Source of the DNA: an uncultured Roseicyclus sp.
Lineage (GTDB): Bacteria > Pseudomonadota > Alphaproteobacteria > Rhodobacterales > Rhodobacteraceae
Assembly (NCBI GenBank): GCA_947500415.1
Contig: CANMRT010000003.1
Coordinates: forward strand, 186,001 to 250,000
Reading direction: 5' to 3'
DNA length: 64,000 nt
Below are positions 32,599 to 43,217 of the stretch, in pieces (the first letter of the stretch is position 1; each line of letters begins with the position of its first letter). The translations under genes were made by a program, and so were the position numbers. Below the pieces are notes generated by a model. That model made no database searches and was not told the DNA's origin. It worked only from the letters and a program-made list of their open reading frames with translations.

Positions 32599-33876
32599 TC
32601 AACGCGATTCAAGGAATGTGATGAATTGTCCCGCCGGAGGGGCGAAACGGACCTGGAAATCGGGTGACGTATCTGCGGGGTGCCACGCGACCAACTGGTC
32701 GCCGCGGAACACCGCAGGCAACGTTATTGCGGCGTCGTGGGGGGGCAGGCCATCGGGCTTGGTTCGCGCCTGCTGCCAGCCGTCCGGACCAAGCGCACGC
32801 AGGGTCAAACCCTTGGGCTCCGTTGAGCAGACATGCCACCGCCCGTCCCAGGTGACTTCCTCTTCCGCTAGTTGGGCAGAAAGGTCCTGCACCGCCACAA
32901 ACTCGCGCGTTACCCTTAGTTGTGCACCGGATACGATAACGCGCACGCCGTGAAGCGTGCCGCCACCGCCAGACAAAGCCCGTTCGAGCAAGTCTTCCAA
33001 AGCGGATGCCCTCGGGCGGTAAGGCGCGCTGGATACCCATTGCAATGCAGCGGCAAGCAACCGTCGTTGCGTGTCATCTTCAACGTCAGCAAAGCGATCT
33101 CGGTCGATCAAAAGATCACCCGTGGGCATCCAGCAACATTTGTCTTCGCTGACGCAATCACGCGCGACATCAACAGCGCGGTGGGTCAAAGCCTTTGACG
33201 CGCTGCGCAAACGGCCTGCCGTAGCCGCCAAGGTTCCGCTATCGATCCCCAGAGAGGCCAAAGCATTGCGCGCTTTAACGCGGTCAAAACGCGGATCCTT
33301 GTTGGACGGGTCATCAACGCAGGGAACCTTCAACGTCTTGATATGATGCCGAAGATATGCGCGCGTCTCATTAAGCAACGGGCGGATCACTTCGAAAGTG
33401 CCGCTCGCGCCGACAATCCTCCGGCGCTCTTCCATCGCCGAAAGCCCTTCCACGCCCGAACCCCGAGCCAATCGCATCAGGAAGGTCTCGGCCACATCAT
33501 CCTGCGTATGGGCCATCAAGACATGGTAAATCTCGCCACGCCATGCGTCGATCAACTCCAACCGCGCCCGCCGCGCCGCGTCTTGCAGGTTGCCCTGCCC
33601 GTCCCACTGCCATCGCAGCGTCGCGTGCGGATGGCCGAGCAATGCGCATTCCTTGGCCACCATCATGGCCTCATCCGCGCTTTCCTGCCGCAACCCGTGA
33701 TCCACCGTCACAACCCGCAGCTTCACGCCAAAGACCCGCGCCCAATCATGGGTCAAGGCCAGCATCGCCATGCTGTCGCCACCGCCAGAGACGGCCAATG
33801 CGATGTCGGTGGGGAAGTCAGGCCCGAGCAGCTGACCCATTCGGGCCGCAAACCGCTCGGGCAGAGTTTCGCTCAC
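32599..33876 (-). CDS. tilS: tRNA(Ile)-lysidine synthase
   Basis: A 425-residue PP-loop ATPase with the SGGGDS loop at about residues 30-35 and the following HTQDDVAETFLMRLARGSG segment. It converts C34 of the tRNA-Ile CAU anticodon to lysidine so that it reads AUA. The C-terminal third is less conserved. It overlaps the end of cpoB by 4 bp; the order cpoB-tilS-ftsH is common in alphaproteobacteria. Confidence 0.95.
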   Translation of the reverse strand: MSETLPERFAARMGQLLGPDFPTDIALAVSGGGDSMAMLALTHDWARVFGVKLRVVTVDHGLRQESADEAMMVAKECALLGHPHATLRWQWDGQGNLQDAARRARLELIDAWRGEIYHVLMAHTQDDVAETFLMRLARGSGVEGLSAMEERRRIVGASGTFEVIRPLLNETRAYLRHHIKTLKVPCVDDPSNKDPRFDRVKARNALASLGIDSGTLAATAGRLRSASKALTHRAVDVARDCVSEDKCCWMPTGDLLIDRDRFADVEDDTQRRLLAAALQWVSSAPYRPRASALEDLLERALSGGGGTLHGVRVIVSGAQLRVTREFVAVQDLSAQLAEEEVTWDGRWHVCSTEPKGLTLRALGPDGWQQARTKPDGLPPHDAAITLPAVFRGDQLVAWHPADTSPDFQVRFAPPAGQFITFLESR

Positions 33877-34724
33877 TGGCAGCCCAAACGCCCGCGCTCA
33901 GCCTCGGCCTCAGCCACTGAAGCGGTGCCGGGATAGCGCACGCTCACCTCAGCCAAGGTCAGGCAGGCCTCTTCCGTCTGCCCTAGCTGCGCCAGCGAGA
34001 CGCCCAGAGACGTCAGGGCCGAAGGTGCACGCTGTCCGTCGGGGGAAGCCGTGAAGCTATCAAGGAAAGCACGCGCCGCCGGGCTCCACCGACCCAGATT
34101 GGCCTCAGACTGGCCGCGCAGATAATGCGCCTCAGCCGACAATGGCCCGCCTGGATAAGTCTCGGTGAAGCCTTGGAACAGCACGGCTGCATCAGCGAAT
34201 TCACCTGCGTCGTATGCCGCCTGCGCGCGGTTGAAGTCATCTTCTTCCGCCACCGCCAGGTTTGCGCCGCTGGTTGCCGGCAAAGCGGACGACGCGACCT
34301 CGCCCCCAGTTTCGGCAGGCACAGGTGCGGCACCCGCGGACTCAGGCGTCACACCACCCAGCGAGGGCGTATCCCCAAGCGTGCCGATATCGCACTCCGC
34401 CTCAAGCTCACACAGACGAAACTCCAGATCACCGATGCGGTTGGTGCCGTCACGCACTACGGAGTCCAGATTGATCTGGATGCGCTCGGTCAGGGCCGTC
34501 AAACGCTGCACCTCAGCCTCGATGGCGTTCACACGATCAATGGTGCCACCGGTGGCCCCAGACCCGCTTGCGCCGCCCGTAGTGTTCAATTCACCCCGCA
34601 AACGCTGGATTTCCACGAACAGCACGGACAGTTCCTGCCGAATATCAGCCAGCGTTTGCGCCCGGTCCTGCGCCATGGCGGGACCAGCGATCAGCAACGC
34701 GCAAATGGCAACAACCAGCCGCAT
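33873..34724 (-). CDS. cpoB: Tol-Pal system coordinator CpoB (YbgF)
   Basis: A 283-residue periplasmic protein with a signal peptide (ending AMAQD), an N-terminal coiled coil (residues about 25-85: TLADIRQELSVLFVEIQRLRGELN) and TPR repeats at the C-terminus (AAYDAGEFADAAVLFQGFTETYPGGPLSAEAHYLRGQSEANLGRW). CpoB links Tol-Pal to murein synthesis at the division site. A GTG at 34733 is an alternative start. A Ser/Thr/Gly/Ala linker separates the two parts. Confidence 0.93.
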   Translation of the reverse strand: MRLVVAICALLIAGPAMAQDRAQTLADIRQELSVLFVEIQRLRGELNTTGGASGSGATGGTIDRVNAIEAEVQRLTALTERIQINLDSVVRDGTNRIGDLEFRLCELEAECDIGTLGDTPSLGGVTPESAGAAPVPAETGGEVASSALPATSGANLAVAEEDDFNRAQAAYDAGEFADAAVLFQGFTETYPGGPLSAEAHYLRGQSEANLGRWSPAARAFLDSFTASPDGQRAPSALTSLGVSLAQLGQTEEACLTLAEVSVRYPGTASVAEAEAERGRLGCQ

Positions 34725-34725
34725 G

Positions 34726-35259
34726 TTACGCACCCAACCCTGCGGAAATCACGGTTACCGCACGGCGGTTCTGGCTATAGCAGGCCTCGGTCGAGCAAAT
34801 CTCAAGCGGACGCTCCTTACCGTAGGAGATCGTGCGCAACCGGCTGCCCGGGACACCTTGCGAAATCAGGTATTCCTGCACCGCCGCCGCGCGCCGCGCG
34901 CCAAGGGCAAGGTTGTATTCCCGCGTGCCCTGCTCATCCGCGTGACCTTCGATCAAGGCGGTGAACTCAGGGTTCGACAAAAGCCACTGCGCTTGTCCCG
35001 CCAGTACCGCCTGTGCGTCCCCCGAAAGGGTCGATTGGTCCACTGCGAACAACACACGATCGCCAACCACCTGATTGAAGTAAGCCGGGCTTGTCGGATC
35101 GCCCACACCACCCGCACCGGCGCCTGCAGCGCCCGCACCGGTCCCGCCAGCGCCCGCCTCATCATCACCACGGAAGCCGCCTTGCGAACAGGCCGCCAAC
35201 GCCAGGGTGCCGACCAAAAGCACGACAGGTGCTTTGCGAAAGATAGATGTCAGTTTCAT
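34726..35259 (-). CDS. pal: Peptidoglycan-associated lipoprotein Pal
   Basis: A 177-residue lipoprotein (LAAC lipobox, Cys24) with a Gly/Ala-rich linker and an OmpA-like domain (VLFAVDQSTLSGDAQAVLAGQ; IEGHADEQGTREYNLALGARRA). It holds the outer membrane to the murein and binds TolB. The signal and domain are complete. Confidence 0.97.
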   Translation of the reverse strand: MKLTSIFRKAPVVLLVGTLALAACSQGGFRGDDEAGAGGTGAGAAGAGAGGVGDPTSPAYFNQVVGDRVLFAVDQSTLSGDAQAVLAGQAQWLLSNPEFTALIEGHADEQGTREYNLALGARRAAAVQEYLISQGVPGSRLRTISYGKERPLEICSTEACYSQNRRAVTVISAGLGA

Positions 35260-35325
35260 TGCTCTGATCCTCGGATCTTGTTTTTCTTACTCATACCATG
35301 CGGGATACGCCCGCGCCAATCACGC

Positions 35326-36654
35326 TTAACTTTGCAGCGGTCCCCATGCCGGATCCGATGCCATGCCGGGTGTTGCCACCCGTTGCAGGTTCCGGCCCGA
35401 GATATCGACGGAATAGACCGCAGGCGCCCCATCATCGCCCGGTGTCTCGCGGGTGAACATGATGACACGCCCGTTCGGGGCCCAAGTCGGGCCCTCGTCT
35501 AGGAAAGACGACGTCAGCAGCCGCTCTTCCGAGCCATCCGTGCGCATCACGCCAATATGGAACCGTCCGTCCGCCTGATAGGTGAACGCGATATAGTCGC
35601 CGCGCGGCGACCAAACTGGCGTGCCATACCGACCCGCGCCTGTGGAAATGCGTCGGCCTTCGCCACCATTCGCAGGCATCACGTAAATCTGCTGCTGGCC
35701 GGTCCGGTCACTCTCGAACACAATCTGGCTGCCATCGGGGCTGAACGACGGGGCCGTCTCAATCGACGGCGAAGAGGTCAGTTGTGAGCGTGCTCCCGAC
35801 GCAATATCGATGCTGTAAATGTCCGAATTACCGCCTTGTTCAAGGCTCAGCACCACCGTCCCACCATCGGGTGAGAAGCGTGGTGAGAACGTCATGTTGC
35901 CCCCGGCAATCGCCTCCAAGGGGCGGCGCTGCACAGTGGCCACATCCATGACGTAGACCTGCGGGAAGCCCGACTCGTAGCTGGTGTAGAGGATCTGATT
36001 GCCTTGCGGCGAGAAGCGCGGCGCCAGAACCAGGGCGCGTGAATCTGTCAGATACTGAACATTCGCACCGTCATAATCCATGATCGCCAGCCGCTTGAGG
36101 CGCGCGTTCTTCGGCCCTTCTTCATGGATGAAGGCGACACGCGTGTCGAAATATCCGCTCTCCCCCGTGATCCGGCTATAAACTTGGTCAGCCACGTTGT
36201 GTGCCATCCGCCGCCAGCTATTGGCAGGACCCACAAATTGCAGCCCTTCTCCAAGTGGCGCCTCACTGAACACATCGAACAGGCGGAAACGCACGACGAT
36301 ATTGCCGTCACCGCGTTCCTCAACTTCACCGGTGATCAGCGCCTGCGCGTTGATTGCCTGCCAATCGGGGTAGCTGATGTTCGCGTTAAAGCTGGTGACT
36401 TGGCTGATATAGGCATCCGGCGGGATCTGCCGGAACAGGCCCGTGCCGCGCAAATCCGCCGCAATCACACGGCTAATGTCCGAGGCCACGTCGCCAGAGC
36501 CCACAAATGTGGGCAAGGCAAACGGCAAAGGCTCAATCACACCTTCGGTGATTTCCAGCCGCAGCGGGCCGTCTTGGGCAAAGCCAATGTTCGGCAAAGC
36601 CGTGGAGGCCAAAAGCAGGCTAGAAGAGCCGATAAAATTCCGGCGTGTCAGCAT
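35326..36654 (-). CDS. tolB: Tol-Pal translocation protein TolB, with Tat-type signal
   Basis: A 442-residue protein with an N-terminal domain (about 35-165) and a beta-propeller built of repeats such as [23 protein letters not shown] and [24 protein letters not shown]. The export signal [20 protein letters not shown] carries the twin-arginine motif TRRNFIG, unlike the Sec signal of enterobacterial TolB. The start at 36654 follows AAGAGGTGG; the frame extends further upstream without similarity. Confidence 0.95.
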
Positions 36655-36721
36655 AACGCCACCTCTTTCTTCAATGGGTGCGGACAGAGCCGCGCATAAT
36701 TGGGGTTGAGCCGTGGCATAT

Positions 36722-37231
36722 TCAATTGCCTCCGGCGTCGGTCGGATCAAAGTTGATCTGTACCCGCTCCCAATAGGGGAAAGCGGCGGCGGGCAGATCA
36801 TAACCGTCTTCTCCGCACCGGATCACGGCGCGGCGGGCGGCCAAAAACGCGAGGTCAGCGCGATCTGGGTCGGTGTCCGTGGCTTCGATCATTTCAAACG
36901 TGTTCGGGATCGGCTCCGCGTCCGAAGTCATGGAGAATCCGACCAACACGCCGACGTCCTGCGCTTCTTCTGGCAGGGCGGCGGTGTTCCAGCACGCCCG
37001 AACCTGAACCATGAAGCTGGCAATCTCGTCCTGTGTCAGGGGTCGCGACTCTTCGACCTCAGCTGCAGCAGCGACAGCTTCTTCCTCGGCCAAAGCCGCC
37101 GCTGCCGCCCGTTCTTCGGCCGCAACAGCCCGTTCCTCAGCCGTTGGGCGCGGGACAGGCACGATTGTCTGGGCCGCAAGGGGGCTTGAGGCTACGATTA
37201 GCAGGGTCATTAGGCGCAAAGAGGCGATCAT
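36722..37231 (-). CDS. Secreted TolA C-terminal-domain-like protein
   Basis: A 169-residue protein with a signal peptide (ending PLAAQ), a Glu/Ala-rich stretch (residues about 30-65, a likely helix) and a C-terminal domain matching TolA of this locus: [14 protein letters not shown] ... [27 protein letters not shown] against SACWNVGSLSTEAQ ... AARRAILRCGTNGYDLPEESYGRW. It has no membrane anchor, so it would be free in the periplasm. Its ATG overlaps the preceding stop by 4 bp. Confidence 0.82.
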
Positions 37232-38838
37232 CGCAGGCGCACTCCATTTCGATCAAAGGTCAAAGTCGCAGCCGCCGTCGCTGGTTCCGCCGATGTTGCT
37301 TCCGCGCAGGCCGTCAGCGCACCGCGCGCAGCGTGAAACGCTTCTTCGGCCGCAGACGACATCACGCGGCCAAATCCCGTCAGGCGAATACTCTGCGTCG
37401 TGGGCATGTTTGTTTCATCCAAAGCCACCTCAACCGAAAGGCTGGCCCAACTGGCCTCAGCGCTCAGATCCGCAAAACGCCAACAAATCTCGGCATCCGA
37501 AATCATGCGCGCCAAGGCAGCATAATCCGGCATTGGAAGTTCGGGGGCGGCATCCGGGTCAAGCGGTGGCGTCCCAACTGACGGAAGGTCTGGCATCTGT
37601 AAGGGGCTCAACGGCGCTGGCGCCGGGCGTGGATCGGTCAAAAGAACTGCAGCCATCGCCTCAGGCGCAGGGATTGGCGGCTGAATCGCACGGCCCTGAC
37701 TATCCGGCCCACCTGGCAAAATCTCAGGCGGCAGCGCGGAATAGGGGAACATATCCGGCATCGGTTGCGACGCGAACCTTAGTCGACCGGCGCGATCCGG
37801 CATGCCCGCGACACTTGGCACGAGAACAGCCGACAAGCCGATTGGCTGATGCGCCAGCGGTGCGTGGATAGCAACCTGCGGTTCAGGCCCCTCGGGCAGC
37901 GGACGCGACAGAACCGGGGCTGCATCTTCATGCGGCATCACAAAAATCGCAGGCTGTACTGTCGGGCGGGAACTTGACGGGACCGAAGGCAGAAGCACCG
38001 CTGACAAGGCGGCTGGTTGATTGCGGGAAGACATCGCGGCAACGGTAAGGAACGCTGTCGGGGTCGGAGCCAATCGCGGTGTAGGCGCGGGCTCCTCGAC
38101 GGTTGGCGCAGATGCTACCGCAATTTCGGTTGCAGCCACGTCCTCATCGTCCGCCGGTGTGAGCGGAGCAGTTGCCATGATCTCCCGCGCGTCCCCGGCC
38201 AAAAGGGCAGCAAGCTCTGCCGCAAGCGCAGCTGCATCTGCGACGTGGCTGCCTTCAGCAATGGGCAACGGTGTAGGCGCTTCAACGGGTTCCAACAGTG
38301 CGACCTGTTCATCTTCAGGCTCAAGCTCCGGCAACGCGGGCGCGTCCGCCGCGTCCAAGGCTGCCAGAATCGTCTCGTTCAACTCGGTCTCGGTGGCTTC
38401 GACCATCTCACGCGGCCTGCGAACCGGGCGCGGATCTGTGGCGGATGCAACGATGACAACAGTCAATTCCGGCTCGGGGATCACATCTGGCACCACCGGT
38501 GCTTCGACATCCTCGGCAATCGCCACCGGCGCGCGCAATTCAGACGGCCTTGGCCTTGGTCGCGTACTTGGGGCCTCCGGTGACAGCGGATTAGGGCTGG
38601 CGATCGAAGGATGCTCCAGCAACACGCCCTGCCCGCCCGACGGTGCTGCGATAATCAACGGTGCAGCCTCTGGTGCGGCCAATATCTGTGGCGCTGTGTC
38701 CGCTGCCGGGGCCACGTCCGACGCCGCTGGCTCTACGGAAATCCACATCCCTGGCCTGTCGGACAGAAGCGTCTGTGCAGCCAGGGGTGAGGTCGAGGCC
38801 AAGAGTGAAAGCAATGCTGCGGATCTGAGCTTGGTCAT
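37228..38838 (-). CDS. Large secreted protein with diverged TolA-C-like end
   Basis: A 536-residue protein with a signal peptide (MTKLRSAALLSLLASTSPLA), a very long Ala/Pro/Glu/Val-rich low-complexity region (about 30-430), and a C-terminal ~100 residues resembling the TolA C-domain (ISDAEICWRFADLSAEASWASLSVEVALDE ... AAEEAFHAARGALTAC). It lacks a membrane anchor. Start at 38838 has an AAGGAGGTGGG ribosome site; the upstream open frame is rejected. Probably a periplasmic spacer or decoy of TolA, by inference. Confidence 0.75.
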   Translation of the reverse strand: MTKLRSAALLSLLASTSPLAAQTLLSDRPGMWISVEPAASDVAPAADTAPQILAAPEAAPLIIAAPSGGQGVLLEHPSIASPNPLSPEAPSTRPRPRPSELRAPVAIAEDVEAPVVPDVIPEPELTVVIVASATDPRPVRRPREMVEATETELNETILAALDAADAPALPELEPEDEQVALLEPVEAPTPLPIAEGSHVADAAALAAELAALLAGDAREIMATAPLTPADDEDVAATEIAVASAPTVEEPAPTPRLAPTPTAFLTVAAMSSRNQPAALSAVLLPSVPSSSRPTVQPAIFVMPHEDAAPVLSRPLPEGPEPQVAIHAPLAHQPIGLSAVLVPSVAGMPDRAGRLRFASQPMPDMFPYSALPPEILPGGPDSQGRAIQPPIPAPEAMAAVLLTDPRPAPAPLSPLQMPDLPSVGTPPLDPDAAPELPMPDYAALARMISDAEICWRFADLSAEASWASLSVEVALDETNMPTTQSIRLTGFGRVMSSAAEEAFHAARGALTACAEATSAEPATAAATLTFDRNGVRLR

Positions 38839-38899
38839 AAGCCCACCTCCTTCTTTTCCGATGTCGGGAAAGGCAGCTTTCGGGGAAGGGAAAATCGGG

Positions 38900-40072
38900 T
38901 CATCGCAGGCGCATCCCTTCCGGGTTGAACACCAGTTCAACCAGACGCCAACGACCATAGCTTTCCTCGGGCAGGTCATAGCCGTTCGTGCCACAACGCA
39001 GGATCGCGCGGCGCGCGGCTTCATAGGCCTGCCGTGCGGCCGTCTCGGACCCACCGGAAAACTCAATCATGCGCAATGTGCCCTCAATCGGGCGTGCCTC
39101 GCGGCTCAACTCAAAGGCAACGGCAACCGTGGTCCCTTGCGCCTCCGTCGACAGCGAGCCGACATTCCAACAAGCACTGACCGCCACCCGGAAGCCTTCG
39201 GCAACGCCTTGGCTCAGTGGCGGACCGGCTGGAGTCGAATCCGCTGCCGGTTCCTCTGCCTCGACAGCATCGGCCACCGCCCCTGCAATCGCCGCTGCCA
39301 GCGGGTCTTCTTCCGGCTCGGTGCTGGCGGTGTCTTCTACGGGGGCTTCGACTGCGGGCTCTTCAGCGGGTGTTTCAACCTCGGCCACAGCCTCTTCGAC
39401 CGGCTCTTCCACCGGCGCGGGGCGATTGGGACGCGCTGTAGGGCGCACAGATGCAGTAGGCGCAAGCGCCGCTGCGGGTTCCTCCGCCTCAGTCACGATC
39501 TCGGTCGTGGCCTCTTCCGGCGCGGTCTCCGGCACCTCCTCCACGGGCGTTTCTTCGGCCACAGCCTCCTCGGTCTGTTGCTCCAACACCTCTGGTGCGG
39601 TTTCCACATCCGGTTCCGGCAACGGTGCTGCGACTGGCGCGATGCGCGGCGCTTCTTCGGGTGTCGGCGTGTCCGATGGCTCGGCATCCGTGACATCGGG
39701 TTGCGGGGCGAGTGCTATCAGATCATCGCTGACCTGAGTGTCAGGGATGGGGTCGACCGGCACCGGATCGCTTTCCGGCGCGGGCGCGGCCGTTTCCGCC
39801 GGTTGTTCCGTAGACGGCGGCGGGGCCTCCTGCGTTGGCACCTCTGGCGCTCCCGTCACCTCAGGCAAGGCGGGCGCTTCCGGCGCTTCGATCACTGCAG
39901 GCGCGTCAGCCGTGCCACTGGTCAGCGCGTCGAACTCCTCTGCCGTGATCAACGCCACACCCGTCACCTCAAACTCCACCTCCGGGCTGCGATCAAACAG
40001 CAACCCACCAAAGGCGACCCAGGCCAGAAGGCCCACATGGATCGCGGAAGAGGCATAGAGGGACCGACGCAT
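38900..40072 (-). CDS. tolA: TolA, inner-membrane Tol-Pal component
   Basis: A 390-residue protein: one N-terminal membrane helix (SAIHVGLLAWVAFGGLLF), a long Glu/Ala/Pro-rich periplasmic rod (about 45-280), and a C-terminal domain of about 100 residues with SACWNVGSLSTEAQ and RCGTNGYDLPEESYGRWRLVEL. It couples TolQR energy to Pal. Start at 40072 (MRRSLYASS), 7 bp after tolR. Confidence 0.9.
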   Translation of the reverse strand: MRRSLYASSAIHVGLLAWVAFGGLLFDRSPEVEFEVTGVALITAEEFDALTSGTADAPAVIEAPEAPALPEVTGAPEVPTQEAPPPSTEQPAETAAPAPESDPVPVDPIPDTQVSDDLIALAPQPDVTDAEPSDTPTPEEAPRIAPVAAPLPEPDVETAPEVLEQQTEEAVAEETPVEEVPETAPEEATTEIVTEAEEPAAALAPTASVRPTARPNRPAPVEEPVEEAVAEVETPAEEPAVEAPVEDTASTEPEEDPLAAAIAGAVADAVEAEEPAADSTPAGPPLSQGVAEGFRVAVSACWNVGSLSTEAQGTTVAVAFELSREARPIEGTLRMIEFSGGSETAARQAYEAARRAILRCGTNGYDLPEESYGRWRLVELVFNPEGMRLR

Positions 40073-40079
40073 GGGCTCA

Positions 40080-40553
40080 TTACTCCCTTTCGCCGTCCAG
40101 GGTCGGACCACCGGCATCGGTCACAAGTCCGATCTCGCGGAAACCCGCTGCATTCAACGCGCCCATCACCTGCATCACCTGCTCATAGGGTATGCCGCCA
40201 TCGGCGCGCACAAAGATGCGCGGGCTGTCGCGTTCGGCTGCAATCGCCTGCAAACGCGGAATAATCTCTTCGCGCGCCACTTCCGTGGTCTGCAACATGA
40301 TCCGCCCGTCTGACGACAAGGTCACCGTCAGCGGTTCTTCCTGCTCAGACGGCAACGCCTCCGCCGAGGTATCTGGCAAGTCAATGGGAACGCCAACCGT
40401 CATCAGCGGCGCGGCGACCATGAAGATGATCAAAAGGCATAACATCACGTCCACGAATGGCGTGACGTTGATTTCGGACATCGGGCGTGAGGCGCGGCGC
40501 CCCCTGCCCCTGCGGCGACGTTGACCGCCGCCCGTTTGGACGGAGGCGCCCAT
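40080..40553 (-). CDS. tolR: TolR (ExbD family)
   Basis: A 157-residue protein: basic N-terminus (RRRRGRGRR), the conserved SEINVTPFVDVMLCLLIIFMVAAPLM membrane helix with the proton-path Asp, and a periplasmic domain ending in a Gly-rich tail. Overlaps the tolQ stop by one base (TAATG). Confidence 0.96.
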   Translation of the reverse strand: MGASVQTGGGQRRRRGRGRRASRPMSEINVTPFVDVMLCLLIIFMVAAPLMTVGVPIDLPDTSAEALPSEQEEPLTVTLSSDGRIMLQTTEVAREEIIPRLQAIAAERDSPRIFVRADGGIPYEQVMQVMGALNAAGFREIGLVTDAGGPTLDGERE

Positions 40554-41245
40554 TAGTCCAACTGCCTGCTGAGAAGCGTTGAGAATTCGTCGGCAAAGCT
40601 CTCGAACGTGCCAACAATCTCATCAGCGTCGCTGCTCAGCTTGTTGTAAAGGATCACCGCTGGGATCGCCGCCAAAAGGCCAAGGCCCGTCGCCAGAAGC
40701 GCCTCGGCGATACCTGGGGCCACAACGGCCAATGAAGTCTGCCCGGAAATCGCGATTTCCTGGAACGACCGCATGATGCCCCAAACAGTGCCGAACAGGC
40801 CAACAAACGGCGCTGTCGCACCTGTTGTCGCCAGAAAGTTCAACCCGTTGGTCATGCGCTGGCTTTCCCGCGCAATCGCCACATCCATCGACCGGTCAAC
40901 GCGCTGCTGAACGCCGGGGATCAGTGCCCCGTCATCGCGTAAGCTGCGTCGCCATTCAGTCATGCCCGCCACGAAGACCCGCTCTGACGCGGATCGCGGG
41001 TTGTCGGCCACTTGATCGTAAAGCTCGTCCAGCGGCTCACCCGACCAGAAGGCCGAGTCAAACGCCGACGCGTTCCCGCGTGAACGGCGGAACATTGCGA
41101 ATTTCGTGAAGGCGATCGTCCAAACCCAGACGGAGGCGACAATCAGCGCCACCATCACGAGTTGAACGATGAAACTTGCACGGAAAAATAAGGCGACGAG
41201 GGTGAAATCCGCCTCGGTCGCCAAAGCGAGCGTCTGTTGTTCCAT
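40553..41245 (-). CDS. tolQ: TolQ (MotA/ExbB family proton channel)
   Basis: A 230-residue protein with three membrane segments (ASFIVQLVMVALIVASVWVW; NGLNFLATTGATAPFVGLFGTVWGIM; SLAVVAPGIAEALLATGLGLLAAIPAVILYN). It is the energising channel of the Tol-Pal system with TolR. First gene after ybgC across a 112-bp gap that probably carries a promoter. Confidence 0.96.
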   Translation of the reverse strand: MEQQTLALATEADFTLVALFFRASFIVQLVMVALIVASVWVWTIAFTKFAMFRRSRGNASAFDSAFWSGEPLDELYDQVADNPRSASERVFVAGMTEWRRSLRDDGALIPGVQQRVDRSMDVAIARESQRMTNGLNFLATTGATAPFVGLFGTVWGIMRSFQEIAISGQTSLAVVAPGIAEALLATGLGLLAAIPAVILYNKLSSDADEIVGTFESFADEFSTLLSRQLD

Positions 41246-41357
41246 AACTGGTTTGCTGTCCTCTGCCCGGCCTCAAACGTAAAGGGCGCGATTTTTGATG
41301 CGCCTCATTTGAGCGACAGTTTATCAGCAATAAAGGGTTAAGGCGAACACTTCTGCG

Positions 41358-41768
41358 TCACGGGCCATCACTTGCCGCGATTGCTGTGACTTTTGCGCGA
41401 ATATCCGCCGGAAGACGGGCTGCACGCTCCTGTTCGTTGAGGATCACAACCTTGATCCGCGCCTCCATCAGCACCTCATCTCCGCGCAAGATGCGTTGTG
41501 GCATGTCGAACGAGGCGCCTTTTAGGGTATCGAGGCGGGTCTCAACCACCAATTCATCGTCATATCGGGCCGGTTTCAGGTAGTCAGCCTCTACACGGCG
41601 CACGGCGAATACGAGGCCCGCTGCCTTCATATCAAGTTGGCTGATGCCTGCCGCGCGCACCATCTCTGACCGGCCACGCTCCAGGTATTTAAGGTAGTTC
41701 GCGTAGTAGACAATCGCCGCCAGATCGACGTCTTCATAATACACACGGAGCGGCCAATGGTGGATCAT
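41358..41768 (-). CDS. ybgC: Tol-Pal-associated acyl-CoA thioesterase YbgC
   Basis: A 136-residue hotdog thioesterase with the 4HBT-type signature VYYEDVDLAAIVYYANYLKYLERGRSEM (catalytic Asp in the first part). It is the usual first gene of the tol-pal cluster. It overlaps the upstream hypothetical gene by 4 bp. Confidence 0.95.
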   Translation of the reverse strand: MIHHWPLRVYYEDVDLAAIVYYANYLKYLERGRSEMVRAAGISQLDMKAAGLVFAVRRVEADYLKPARYDDELVVETRLDTLKGASFDMPQRILRGDEVLMEARIKVVILNEQERAARLPADIRAKVTAIAASDGP

Positions 41769-42394
41769 TGCAGTGCTCCCATCCTTGCGGCCAATCGCAG
41801 GGAGGTCGCGGGTTCGGTTGAGGCAACTGGCAGCACCGGATCGTATCCCGCCCGGATCACATCGGCGATCTCGGGTCGCAATACCGCAGCGCTATTTTCC
41901 AAAACGGCCAGTGGCGAGGTTCCCAGAAAGGCCGTATCCGACCACAGCAAAATCGTTTGAACAACTTGGCTCAGCGCAATCGTCTCCGCCGGGGCCGCCG
42001 CCATTGCGTCATCCATCCGCACAAACACAAATGAGGCCTTGATCCCGCCGTCCGCATCAAAGCGGAAACTTCGGTATTGGTTCGCATCTGCGCGTTTTAG
42101 CCACTCGACCGTCGCAGCCAAATCGGGGAGCAATCGGTCGAGGTTCGGTGTCTCCACCAACTCGTCCCACTCCCGTATAAAGAACACCATCAGGTTCGCG
42201 CCCAACTCCGGGTCCGTCTCAGCCATTTTGTGGCCTGCCAAAGCCACCACAGCCTCAATCGCGCCTTTCAGGAGGCCAACCGTTGCGTCTTCCACACCGA
42301 AGACCACCGGCACAATCGGCCGCCCCCACCGTGCGAACAGAAACGTGCCGTCAGCGCGGGTAAACAGCGCTTCAATTCCCCCAGCATCGATCAT
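41765..42394 (-). CDS. Conserved hypothetical protein between ruvB and ybgC (a)
   Basis: A 209-residue soluble protein (MIDAGGIEALFTRADGTFLFARWGRPIVPVVFGV ...). No signal, membrane segment or known motif is visible. It overlaps the neighbouring genes at both ends (23 bp with the upstream gene, 4 bp with ybgC), so it is translationally linked to tol-pal. Confidence 0.8.
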   Translation of the reverse strand: MIDAGGIEALFTRADGTFLFARWGRPIVPVVFGVEDATVGLLKGAIEAVVALAGHKMAETDPELGANLMVFFIREWDELVETPNLDRLLPDLAATVEWLKRADANQYRSFRFDADGGIKASFVFVRMDDAMAAAPAETIALSQVVQTILLWSDTAFLGTSPLAVLENSAAVLRPEIADVIRAGYDPVLPVASTEPATSLRLAARMGALQ

Positions 42395-43217
42395 TCAAAC
42401 CAATCCGCAACCGCCGCACGGAAAATGCGGCATCTTCACCCAGGCCAAAAACCCGATCCGGGTCGCCCGAAGACCTTATGATCGCGGCCACAGCTCCGTC
42501 GTTGACCCGCAACCCAATTGCGCCCATTTCCAGACCACAGGCATGGGGCTGGCATCCCGTCGCAATGACCCAATCACCCACCTGCATAACTTCACCCCCA
42601 ACCAGTAGACGCGTCCACAATTCCTGCATCTCCCAGATCTGCATAGCGCCGGCAAAACGCGCCCGTTCGCTGCCATCCTCCAAAATGTCCGAGCCAAGCG
42701 CACCAACCCAGCGCGTGACGTCCGCGCCCGATCCTGCAGCTTCTTCGGGCGGTGCGTAGTGGAAGGTCTCGGAATATGCGTCGCCCTGCCAGCGCAACGT
42801 CACGAGCGGCACAAGGATATTCGTATCCGTCCGGTCCAACTCAATCACATCACCTTCGGTACGGATCTCCACGAACCATCCGTCACAATCGCTAATCGGT
42901 TGTGATTGCGCGACGCCATCCGCCCCGACGCGCAAAACATAGGATGCACCGCCACCGCAGGAATTTCCGCCGTGATGATGGCTCACCAAAACCCAATCAA
43001 ACCCTGCTTCCGATTGTGCGTACCATTGCACAAACCAACGCGCATCTTCCGGCAATGGCAGCGGCTCTTGATTGTGCCAAAGCGTGAATTGAAAATCTGA
43101 GCCTACTGCGTGAATTTCCCCAAATCGCGTGTCCAGTCGTTCGGCGTAATCGAATTCGATTTGAGCCATGGCCGGCGCCGCGCAAAGAAACGCAATGAGC
43201 GCGGCAACCAAGCGCAT
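42372..43217 (-). CDS. Conserved periplasmic hypothetical protein between ruvB and ybgC (b)
   Basis: A 281-residue protein with a signal peptide ([18 protein letters not shown]) and scattered cysteines that could form disulfides (NSCGGGAS, DCDGWF, TGCQPHACG). Family not recognised. The start at 43217 overlaps the ruvB stop (TGATG); the longer frame would lie inside ruvB. Confidence 0.8.
   Translation of the reverse strand: MRLVAALIAFLCAAPAMAQIEFDYAERLDTRFGEIHAVGSDFQFTLWHNQEPLPLPEDARWFVQWYAQSEAGFDWVLVSHHHGGNSCGGGASYVLRVGADGVAQSQPISDCDGWFVEIRTEGDVIELDRTDTNILVPLVTLRWQGDAYSETFHYAPPEEAAGSGADVTRWVGALGSDILEDGSERARFAGAMQIWEMQELWTRLLVGGEVMQVGDWVIATGCQPHACGLEMGAIGLRVNDGAVAAIIRSSGDPDRVFGLGEDAAFSVRRLRIGLNDRCWGN

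Follow-up and report, generated by a model that had tools for sequence, protein, structure and literature searches.

TolA C-domain paralogues encoded between tolA and tolB in Roseicyclus, candidate passive satellites of the Tol-Pal machine

TolA is an arm, powered by a motor, that draws the outer membrane inward during division, and we know of no answer to how the force of the Tol-Pal machine is limited. The locus analyzed here raises the question of what additional copies of the tip of that arm might be doing beside tolA. It lies in a 64,000-nucleotide stretch of DNA from an uncultured Roseicyclus sp. (contig CANMRT010000003.1, positions 186,001 to 250,000), referred to below as the window, in which two genes that we call LONG and SMALL are both encoded after tolA, between tolR and tolB. 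The original prediction, made from the DNA of the window, had held that both genes end in a domain resembling the C-terminal domain of TolA (TolA-C). We found the two open reading frames in place, and BLASTP and hhalign comparisons established the homology. The features at the center of the argument are as follows.

38900..40072, minus strand: tolA, placed after tolR; 390 residues with one transmembrane (TM) segment containing a histidine (SAIHVGLL), a Pro/Ala/Glu-rich middle and the C-domain
38903..39220, minus strand: TolA-C, the reference copy (alignment A3; profile A4 compared with P. aeruginosa domain III)
37228..38838, minus strand: LONG satellite gene, 536 residues with a signal-like N-terminus, a Pro/Ala-rich middle of ~400 residues and a TolA-C-like domain
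38740..38775, minus strand: conserved LONG box after the putative cleavage site, Q-T-x3-[DE]-R-P-G-[RM]-W-[IV], in 13/13 aligned LONG
37231..37551, minus strand: TolA-C-like domain of LONG (hhalign; model with a predicted local distance difference test score, pLDDT, of 84; Foldseek; median omega 0.156)
36722..37231, minus strand: SMALL satellite gene, 169 residues with a signal-like N-terminus, a short helical linker and a TolA-C domain
36725..37045, minus strand: TolA-C domain of SMALL (43% identity to TolA-C; hhalign E 8e-35; model pLDDT 84)

SMALL could be recognized by direct comparison. A BLASTP-type alignment over 100 residues was identical to the TolA of the window at 43 positions (43%, E 3e-25), bearing out the description of the 169-residue protein as a clear TolA-C homologue. 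LONG gave no significant BLASTP match to TolA and a marginal one to SMALL (E 0.035). At the level of sequence, however, family profiles settle its assignment to TolA-C. With C-domain alignments from the genus (A1, 13 LONG; A2, 8 SMALL; A3, 13 TolA), hhalign paired A1 with A3 at a probability of 97.1 (E 7e-11, score 63.2), A1 with A2 at 96.7 (E 4e-10, score 59.1) and A2 with A3 at 99.9 (E 8e-35). By comparison, A1 scored at most 20.5 (A3) and 21.1 (A2) against 200 column-permuted profiles, and 12.0 (A3) and 9.8 (A2) against reversed ones. The 536-residue protein is thus the more distant relative, as had been proposed. Searching the PDB with the TolA-C profile A4 returned domain III of P. aeruginosa TolA (1lr0, E 0.0033; 6s3w, E 0.0039), which ties these C-domains to a solved TolA. 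Pfam searched up to E 1 held no match for TolA, LONG or SMALL, and NCBIfam offered nothing but GltG for SMALL (E 0.45, 9 bits against a cut-off of 650). Collectively, these comparisons identify LONG and SMALL as real TolA-C paralogues, neither chance matches nor artefacts.

The original prediction had also tied its case to the predicted structures of the C-domains. AlphaFold2 models of the LONG C-domain (LONG-C) and of SMALL were built from alignments of 14 and 13 sequences, both of which included TolA rows and made the models dependent on TolA; mean pLDDT was 84.0 for each, and the predicted template modelling score was 0.73 for LONG-C and 0.62 for SMALL. The LONG-C model runs helix-strand-strand-helix-strand-strand, and that of SMALL has an N-terminal helix (residues 31-57) followed by helix-strand-strand-helix-helix-strand. 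Both show the layout of a TolA/TonB C-domain, with the last strand present in each. The best PDB matches found by Foldseek were TolA-C for both, none of them reaching E 0.001. For LONG-C the first three entries were all TolA-C (2x9a_B, E 0.056, probability 0.94; 3qdr_A, E 0.11; 1tol, E 0.18), followed by HasB, a weak structural match of the model to TolA-C. SMALL matched 2x9a_B best (E 0.0017, probability 1.00), then TonB and TolA C-domains.

The genes are closely packed. LONG starts 61 bases past the end of tolA, the ATG of SMALL overlaps the stop codon of LONG (ATGA), and 67 bases separate SMALL from tolB. A consensus scan of 34600-42500, in which terminators were no more numerous than in shuffled sequence, detected neither a sigma-70-like promoter nor a terminator-like site between tolA and tolB, so the genes from tolA to tolB are likely to be read as one transcript.

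Within the genus, LONG is present in 13/13 genomes, always between tolA and tolB. SMALL is present in eight, after LONG in G000, G001, G005 and G008 and between tolA and LONG in G002, G004, G006 and G011. Neighboring genomes therefore do not lack these genes consistently, and the "threefold" TolA-C domain of the original prediction holds for eight of the 13 genomes and fails in the five that have no SMALL. In a tree of 122 rows, the LONG rows (13) cluster at 100/98 and the SMALL rows (8) at 99/90, values from a bootstrap that had not settled; four of 126 rows that were short, partial or very divergent were left out (G219_sat1, G248_sat1, the unlinked copy of G425 and G016_sat2). In a 75-row tree, the SMALL of G004 falls apart from those of G000 and G008, so a single origin of SMALL in the genus is likely rather than certain.

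Both genes appear to be under purifying selection in the genus. The median pairwise ratio of nonsynonymous to synonymous substitution rates (dN/dS, or omega) was 0.156 for LONG-C (62/78 pairs with finite dS), 0.374 for the rest of LONG (76/78), 0.283 for whole SMALL (26/28) and 0.303 for its C-domain (24/28), compared with 0.134 for TolA-C (78/78), 0.071 for tolQ and 0.101 for tolB, all rough values because dS was often near saturation. Frames were taken from stop to stop for tolQ, tolR, tolB and pal and from an upstream start for the LONG of G012; the whole-gene values and that for the rest of LONG include slight upstream sequence, and the C-domain values do not.

We then looked beyond the genus, where the counts are lower bounds; part of the first-look candidates in each genome were scored. 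The family set comprised 394 genomes, only two of them (G000 and G008) from the genus. Profile A1 matched 126, mainly at open frames of TolA length, with a best score outside the genus of 52 bits (E 3e-13) compared with 205-206 bits for LONG itself, and we therefore saw no LONG orthologue outside the genus in this set. Profile A4 matched 373 of the 394, and 31 had two or more matches, including the two genus members. Rescanning the other 29 and reading their loci revealed an additional TolA-C lying immediately between tolA and tolB in 19 of the 392 other family genomes (G014, G016 with two extra, G061, G068, G099, G156, G169, G180, G219, G248, G320, G347, G348, G356, G382, G397, G402, G417 and G420). 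The satellites of G219 and G248 are short remnants. Among the other 17, judged by eye, 14 begin with a signal-like segment, the start of G382 is ambiguous, and the N-terminus is TM-like in the G156 satellite and in the first extra copy of G016. Seven genomes carry an unlinked second TolA-C (G112, G235, G307, G333, G351, G403 and G425). In the complete proteins it follows other N-terminal parts that look exported, and the copy of G425 is truncated by a contig end. The second matches of G019, G237 and G416 are weak or lie at contig ends. In a class-wide set of 289 genomes, 248 matched A4 and, besides G000, 17 had two or more matches; an extra copy lies between tolA and tolB in six genomes from four other alphaproteobacterial families (G658; G599 and G485; G663 and G566; G587). 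This recurrence, a single satellite in further genera and families, tells us more than the threefold arrangement of the window.

Some of these proteins have unusual architectures. In G016 (L152), three consecutive TolA-C proteins lie between tolR and tolB in frames of 591, 415 and 639 residues, the first two with TM-like N-termini. The unlinked proteins of G112, G333 and G351 (L173, L177 and L179) look exported and have a common N-terminal part containing MPFS.V ahead of TolA-C. By eye, the tol-linked satellites of G485, G663 and G566 (L188, L189 and L190), from two other alphaproteobacterial families, have lipobox-like signals, and that of G587 (L191) joins an exported-looking, EF-hand-like part to a C-domain almost identical to that of its own TolA. 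Its sequence identifies the G587 satellite as a recent copy of the TolA tip alone, a domain capture.

Mapping the satellite label onto the 122-row tree requires 18 changes, which may be gains or losses, at least 8 of them forced by well supported branches. Constraining 20 family satellites to one clade was weakly rejected (approximately unbiased test, p 0.041; log-likelihood difference 61; 113 columns), for a group picked after the first tree had been seen. These 20, from the 75-row tree, include four LONG and three SMALL of the genus; that tree omits 9/13 genus genomes, the fast-evolving G014_sat1 and G382_sat1, G013, G016, G156 and the other families. A single origin of the family satellites is thus weakly disfavored. 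Given the near-identical tip of G587, the forced changes and the weak rejection of one clade, satellites probably arose more than once. That a TolA-C beside tolA has been kept or remade repeatedly points to a function in Tol-Pal.

If so, are the satellites attached to the motor? The original prediction gave both proteins signal peptides and no membrane anchor. By eye, both N-termini are signal-like and lack the SxxH-like, motor-binding TM motif of TolA, whose TM histidine is present in 13/13 genus TolA. The segments lead into sequences resembling cleavage sites, AQT in 13/13 LONG and A[QD] in 8/8 SMALL; the LONG of G004 has a histidine, positioned beside the putative cleavage site. Their hydropathy peaks are similar to that of the TolA TM, and hydropathy by itself cannot tell an anchor from a signal that is cleaved off. 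The secretion-like ends and the missing motif were thus upheld, and LONG and SMALL are putatively exported and cleaved. The original prediction, which further saw them as free copies competing with TolA for Pal, TolB or porins, is supported in part, and the competition is hypothetical.

We next compared what the satellite domains retain, using as a reference 35 positions conserved in ≥75% of 59 TolA-C domains of the family (13 from the genus). On average, SMALL keeps 65% of them, 15 other family satellites 65%, five unlinked copies 82% and LONG 38%. SMALL has lost the GPP entry and the MRLR tail. Much of its TolA-C core is intact, down to the last strand, to which TolB binds in E. coli. LONG has kept a GVRLR-like tail and lost the LP..Y..W segment before the last strand. 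Because of this loss and its lower retention (38% versus 65%), LONG may bind something else. Both cysteines are kept in 13/13 LONG, 8/8 SMALL and 15/15 of the other family satellites aligned (G016 and G156 were left out), and the pair would be expected to form a disulfide; it is missing from all the domains of G016 and from the f82 genomes, their TolA included. For 3 of 15 other family satellites the TolA of the same genome ranks first, as expected if most satellites are old and fast-evolving. The Pro/Ala-rich middle of LONG is variable, and short motifs in the protein are fixed in 13/13 (the LONG start of G012 was chosen manually): Q-T-x3-[DE]-RPG-[RM]-W-[IV] at the putative mature N-terminus, P-[VI]-L-[SP]-R-x2-P-x-[GA]-P, and FPxSAL. 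RPG[RM]W, P[VI]L[SP]RxxP and FPxSAL are likely docking sites.

The partner that such a tip would be expected to meet is encoded next door. The remaining genes of the locus are these.

40553..41245, minus strand: tolQ (Pfam MotA_ExbB E 2e-36; identity in the genus 88-96%)
40080..40553, minus strand: tolR (Pfam ExbD E 2e-29)
35326..36654, minus strand: tolB, with a twin-arginine type signal, MLTRRNF... (Pfam TolB_N E 2e-30, PD40)
36529..36570, minus strand: candidate TolA box of TolB, 14 residues (by-eye comparison to the TolA box of P. aeruginosa, PMC7066135)
34726..35259, minus strand: pal (Pfam OmpA E 1e-19)
33873..34733, minus strand: cpoB, also ybgF (Pfam TPR families; TolA_bind_tri under its cut-off)

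TolB of P. aeruginosa is described as joining TolA-C through its N-terminus, which adds a parallel strand by strand augmentation (PMC7066135); the beta3 strand of E. coli TolAIII is the reported binding site of TolB, colicin N and phage g3p alike (PMC4339652). A hydrophobic N-terminal box of 13 residues, preceded by G in 12 genomes and by P in G007, is found in 13/13 TolB of the genus and is a candidate TolA box. TolB in these genomes has a further peculiarity: a twin-arginine type signal (ML[TN]RRxF...; in the window, the TolB N-terminus at 36577-36654) occurs in 13/13 genus genomes and in the sister genome G023, and a simple motif search found none in the other 59 of 73 TolB N-termini. TatC is present in the genome of the window, and TolB may be exported folded in the genus. 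A link between satellites and this signal was considered and dropped: G023 has the signal and no satellite, and the other satellite genomes compared have no such TolB (an RR pair in G587 lies outside the motif).

We propose that LONG and SMALL are passive, unmotorized TolA tips in the periplasm, SMALL buffering TolB and LONG tethering another or additional partner. Since SMALL keeps the last strand and TolB keeps the box, free SMALL would be expected to take the box without pulling. Like TolA, it would most likely present the edge of its last strand to the TolA box at the TolB N-terminus; holding TolB without pulling, it would act as a buffer or brake on the force-driven release of Pal. In LONG, a diverged TolA-type tip would sit on an extended, flexible arm that has conserved docking motifs of its own, and the protein would most likely tether a second partner at the septum or close to TolB/Pal. 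What we observe is homology to TolA-C, the placement and order of the genes, conservation and purifying selection in the genus, recurrence outside it and absence of the TM motif; export, cleavage, the partners and the braking effect are what we infer. Overproduction of TolAIII in the periplasm of E. coli gives tol-like defects.

Several points weigh against this proposal. Binding and signal cleavage are both predictions. LONG has lost several conserved TolA-C positions, and the selection estimates, rough as they are, come from the genus only. TolA-TolB-type complexes are reported to be weak, with dissociation constants of 40-250 uM (PMC7066135), and a soluble rival would therefore need to be abundant. 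Finally, SMALL is absent from 5/13 genus genomes, and in 361/392 other family genomes a second TolA-C match is missing or doubtful at the depth scored, so the effect cannot be essential. On balance we hold the proposal tentatively, at a probability of roughly 0.42.

The tips, LONG above all, might instead be neofunctionalized tethers that no longer bind TolB but another envelope partner, such as a porin, a peptidoglycan enzyme or CpoB, which they would link to the division site. The missing LP..Y..W segment of LONG, set beside its fixed arm motifs, is what such a role would lead one to expect, as are the other N-terminal parts (EF-hand-like in G587) or lipobox-like signals of satellites elsewhere. 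However, the copy lies beside tolA in 19 of the 29 multiple-match genomes from the rest of the family, which favors a role in Tol-Pal, and there is no known partner for a tether. We consider this reading unlikely, if worth keeping in view.

Free tips could also serve as decoy receptors that shield TolA by sequestering phage adhesins or bacteriocins whose co-receptor is TolA-C. TolA-C is indeed described as a target of phage g3p and of colicins A and N (PMC4339652), and the satellites were seemingly gained and lost repeatedly and sit on long branches. Against this, LONG occurs in 13/13 genomes with a conserved C-domain (omega 0.156), the satellite genes sit inside the tol run, and SMALL had no match among the plasmid and phage records searched; a mobile-element origin of SMALL was dropped on the same result. 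No phage or bacteriocin of Rhodobacterales that depends on TolA is known to us, although no search was made for one, and this too counts against decoys, which we regard as improbable.

Uncleaved N-terminal segments would make LONG and SMALL additional TolA-like arms anchored in the inner membrane, as their TolA-like hydropathy peaks and the TM-like start of the next copy after tolA in G156 and G016 would allow; with cleavage-like AQT in 13/13 LONG and A[QD] in 8/8 SMALL, and no SxxH-like motif, this is very improbable. That the genes are decaying duplicates without function is hardly tenable, for despite the remnants in G219 and G248 and the loss of SMALL from 5/13 genus genomes, median omega in the genus is well below 1 for both genes and both cysteines persist in 13/13 LONG, 8/8 SMALL and 15/15 other aligned satellites.

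Returning to passive tips, the recurrence of loose tips in relatives of the genus points to an undescribed tuning of the Tol-Pal machine. A broader version of the proposal is that the TolA tip, copied on its own into a secreted or lipidated satellite gene beside tolA, has repeatedly given alphaproteobacteria a motor-free antagonist of Tol-Pal, and that the Roseicyclus pair, one with a docking arm of 400 residues, forms a regulatory layer setting how strongly and at what place the outer membrane is drawn in or shed as vesicles; this is possible, and we would sooner bet against it than for it. A recurrent TolA tip that is apparently secreted would offer a probe, evolved in nature, of how TolA contacts TolB, and it could link envelope constriction with vesicle release. 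R. sphaeroides is among the alphaproteobacteria whose Tol-Pal genes are reported to be essential, as an established fact or as a prediction (PMC10470753), and vesicles of the related marine Dinoroseobacter shibae are reported to be rich in Pal and TolB (PMC7901474). A 2025 survey describes the tol-pal gene order as highly conserved, with no mention of extra TolA tips in the first part of its operon section (PMC12204202).

How do the satellites compare with known systems? The literature matches listed, as titles and the starts of abstracts with subscription papers mostly outside the scope, contained no description of tol-linked secreted TolA tips. To that extent the claim that no example had been described stands, with a looser precedent in VreA, discussed below. 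A class of satellites around a known machine is apparently undescribed: it draws on a known fold family, its arrangement and recurrence are new to us, and its function is a prediction. TolA domain III itself (E. coli TolAIII, 1tol and 3qdr; P. aeruginosa, 1lr0 and 6s3w) shares with the satellites the fold, homologous sequence, the last strand and the tol-pal location; unlike TolA, the satellites lack the motor-coupled TM motif and are apparently exported separately, and LONG lacks LP..Y..W. TonB paralogues belong to the same fold superfamily, with the C-terminal domain of HasB among the Foldseek matches of both models and that of FusB among those of SMALL. TonBs, however, stay anchored in the inner membrane and act on transporters of the outer membrane, whereas the satellites are tol-linked and without a TolA-like TM motif. 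VreA (PA0674, of the PUMA3 cell-surface signalling system of P. aeruginosa) is the nearest precedent for a TolA-like C-domain that is free in the periplasm: it is likewise periplasmic with a TolA/TonB-like C-terminal domain, and differs from the satellites in having an N-terminal signalling domain, in belonging to a sigma-factor system and in lying outside the tol locus (PMC2729926). Pfam had no match for the secretin/TonB short N-terminal signalling domain in LONG or SMALL. Finally, phage g3p and colicin N illustrate how a competitor can block the contact between TolA and TolB (PMC4339652), with the difference that they take the place of TolB, whereas the satellites would take the place of TolA.

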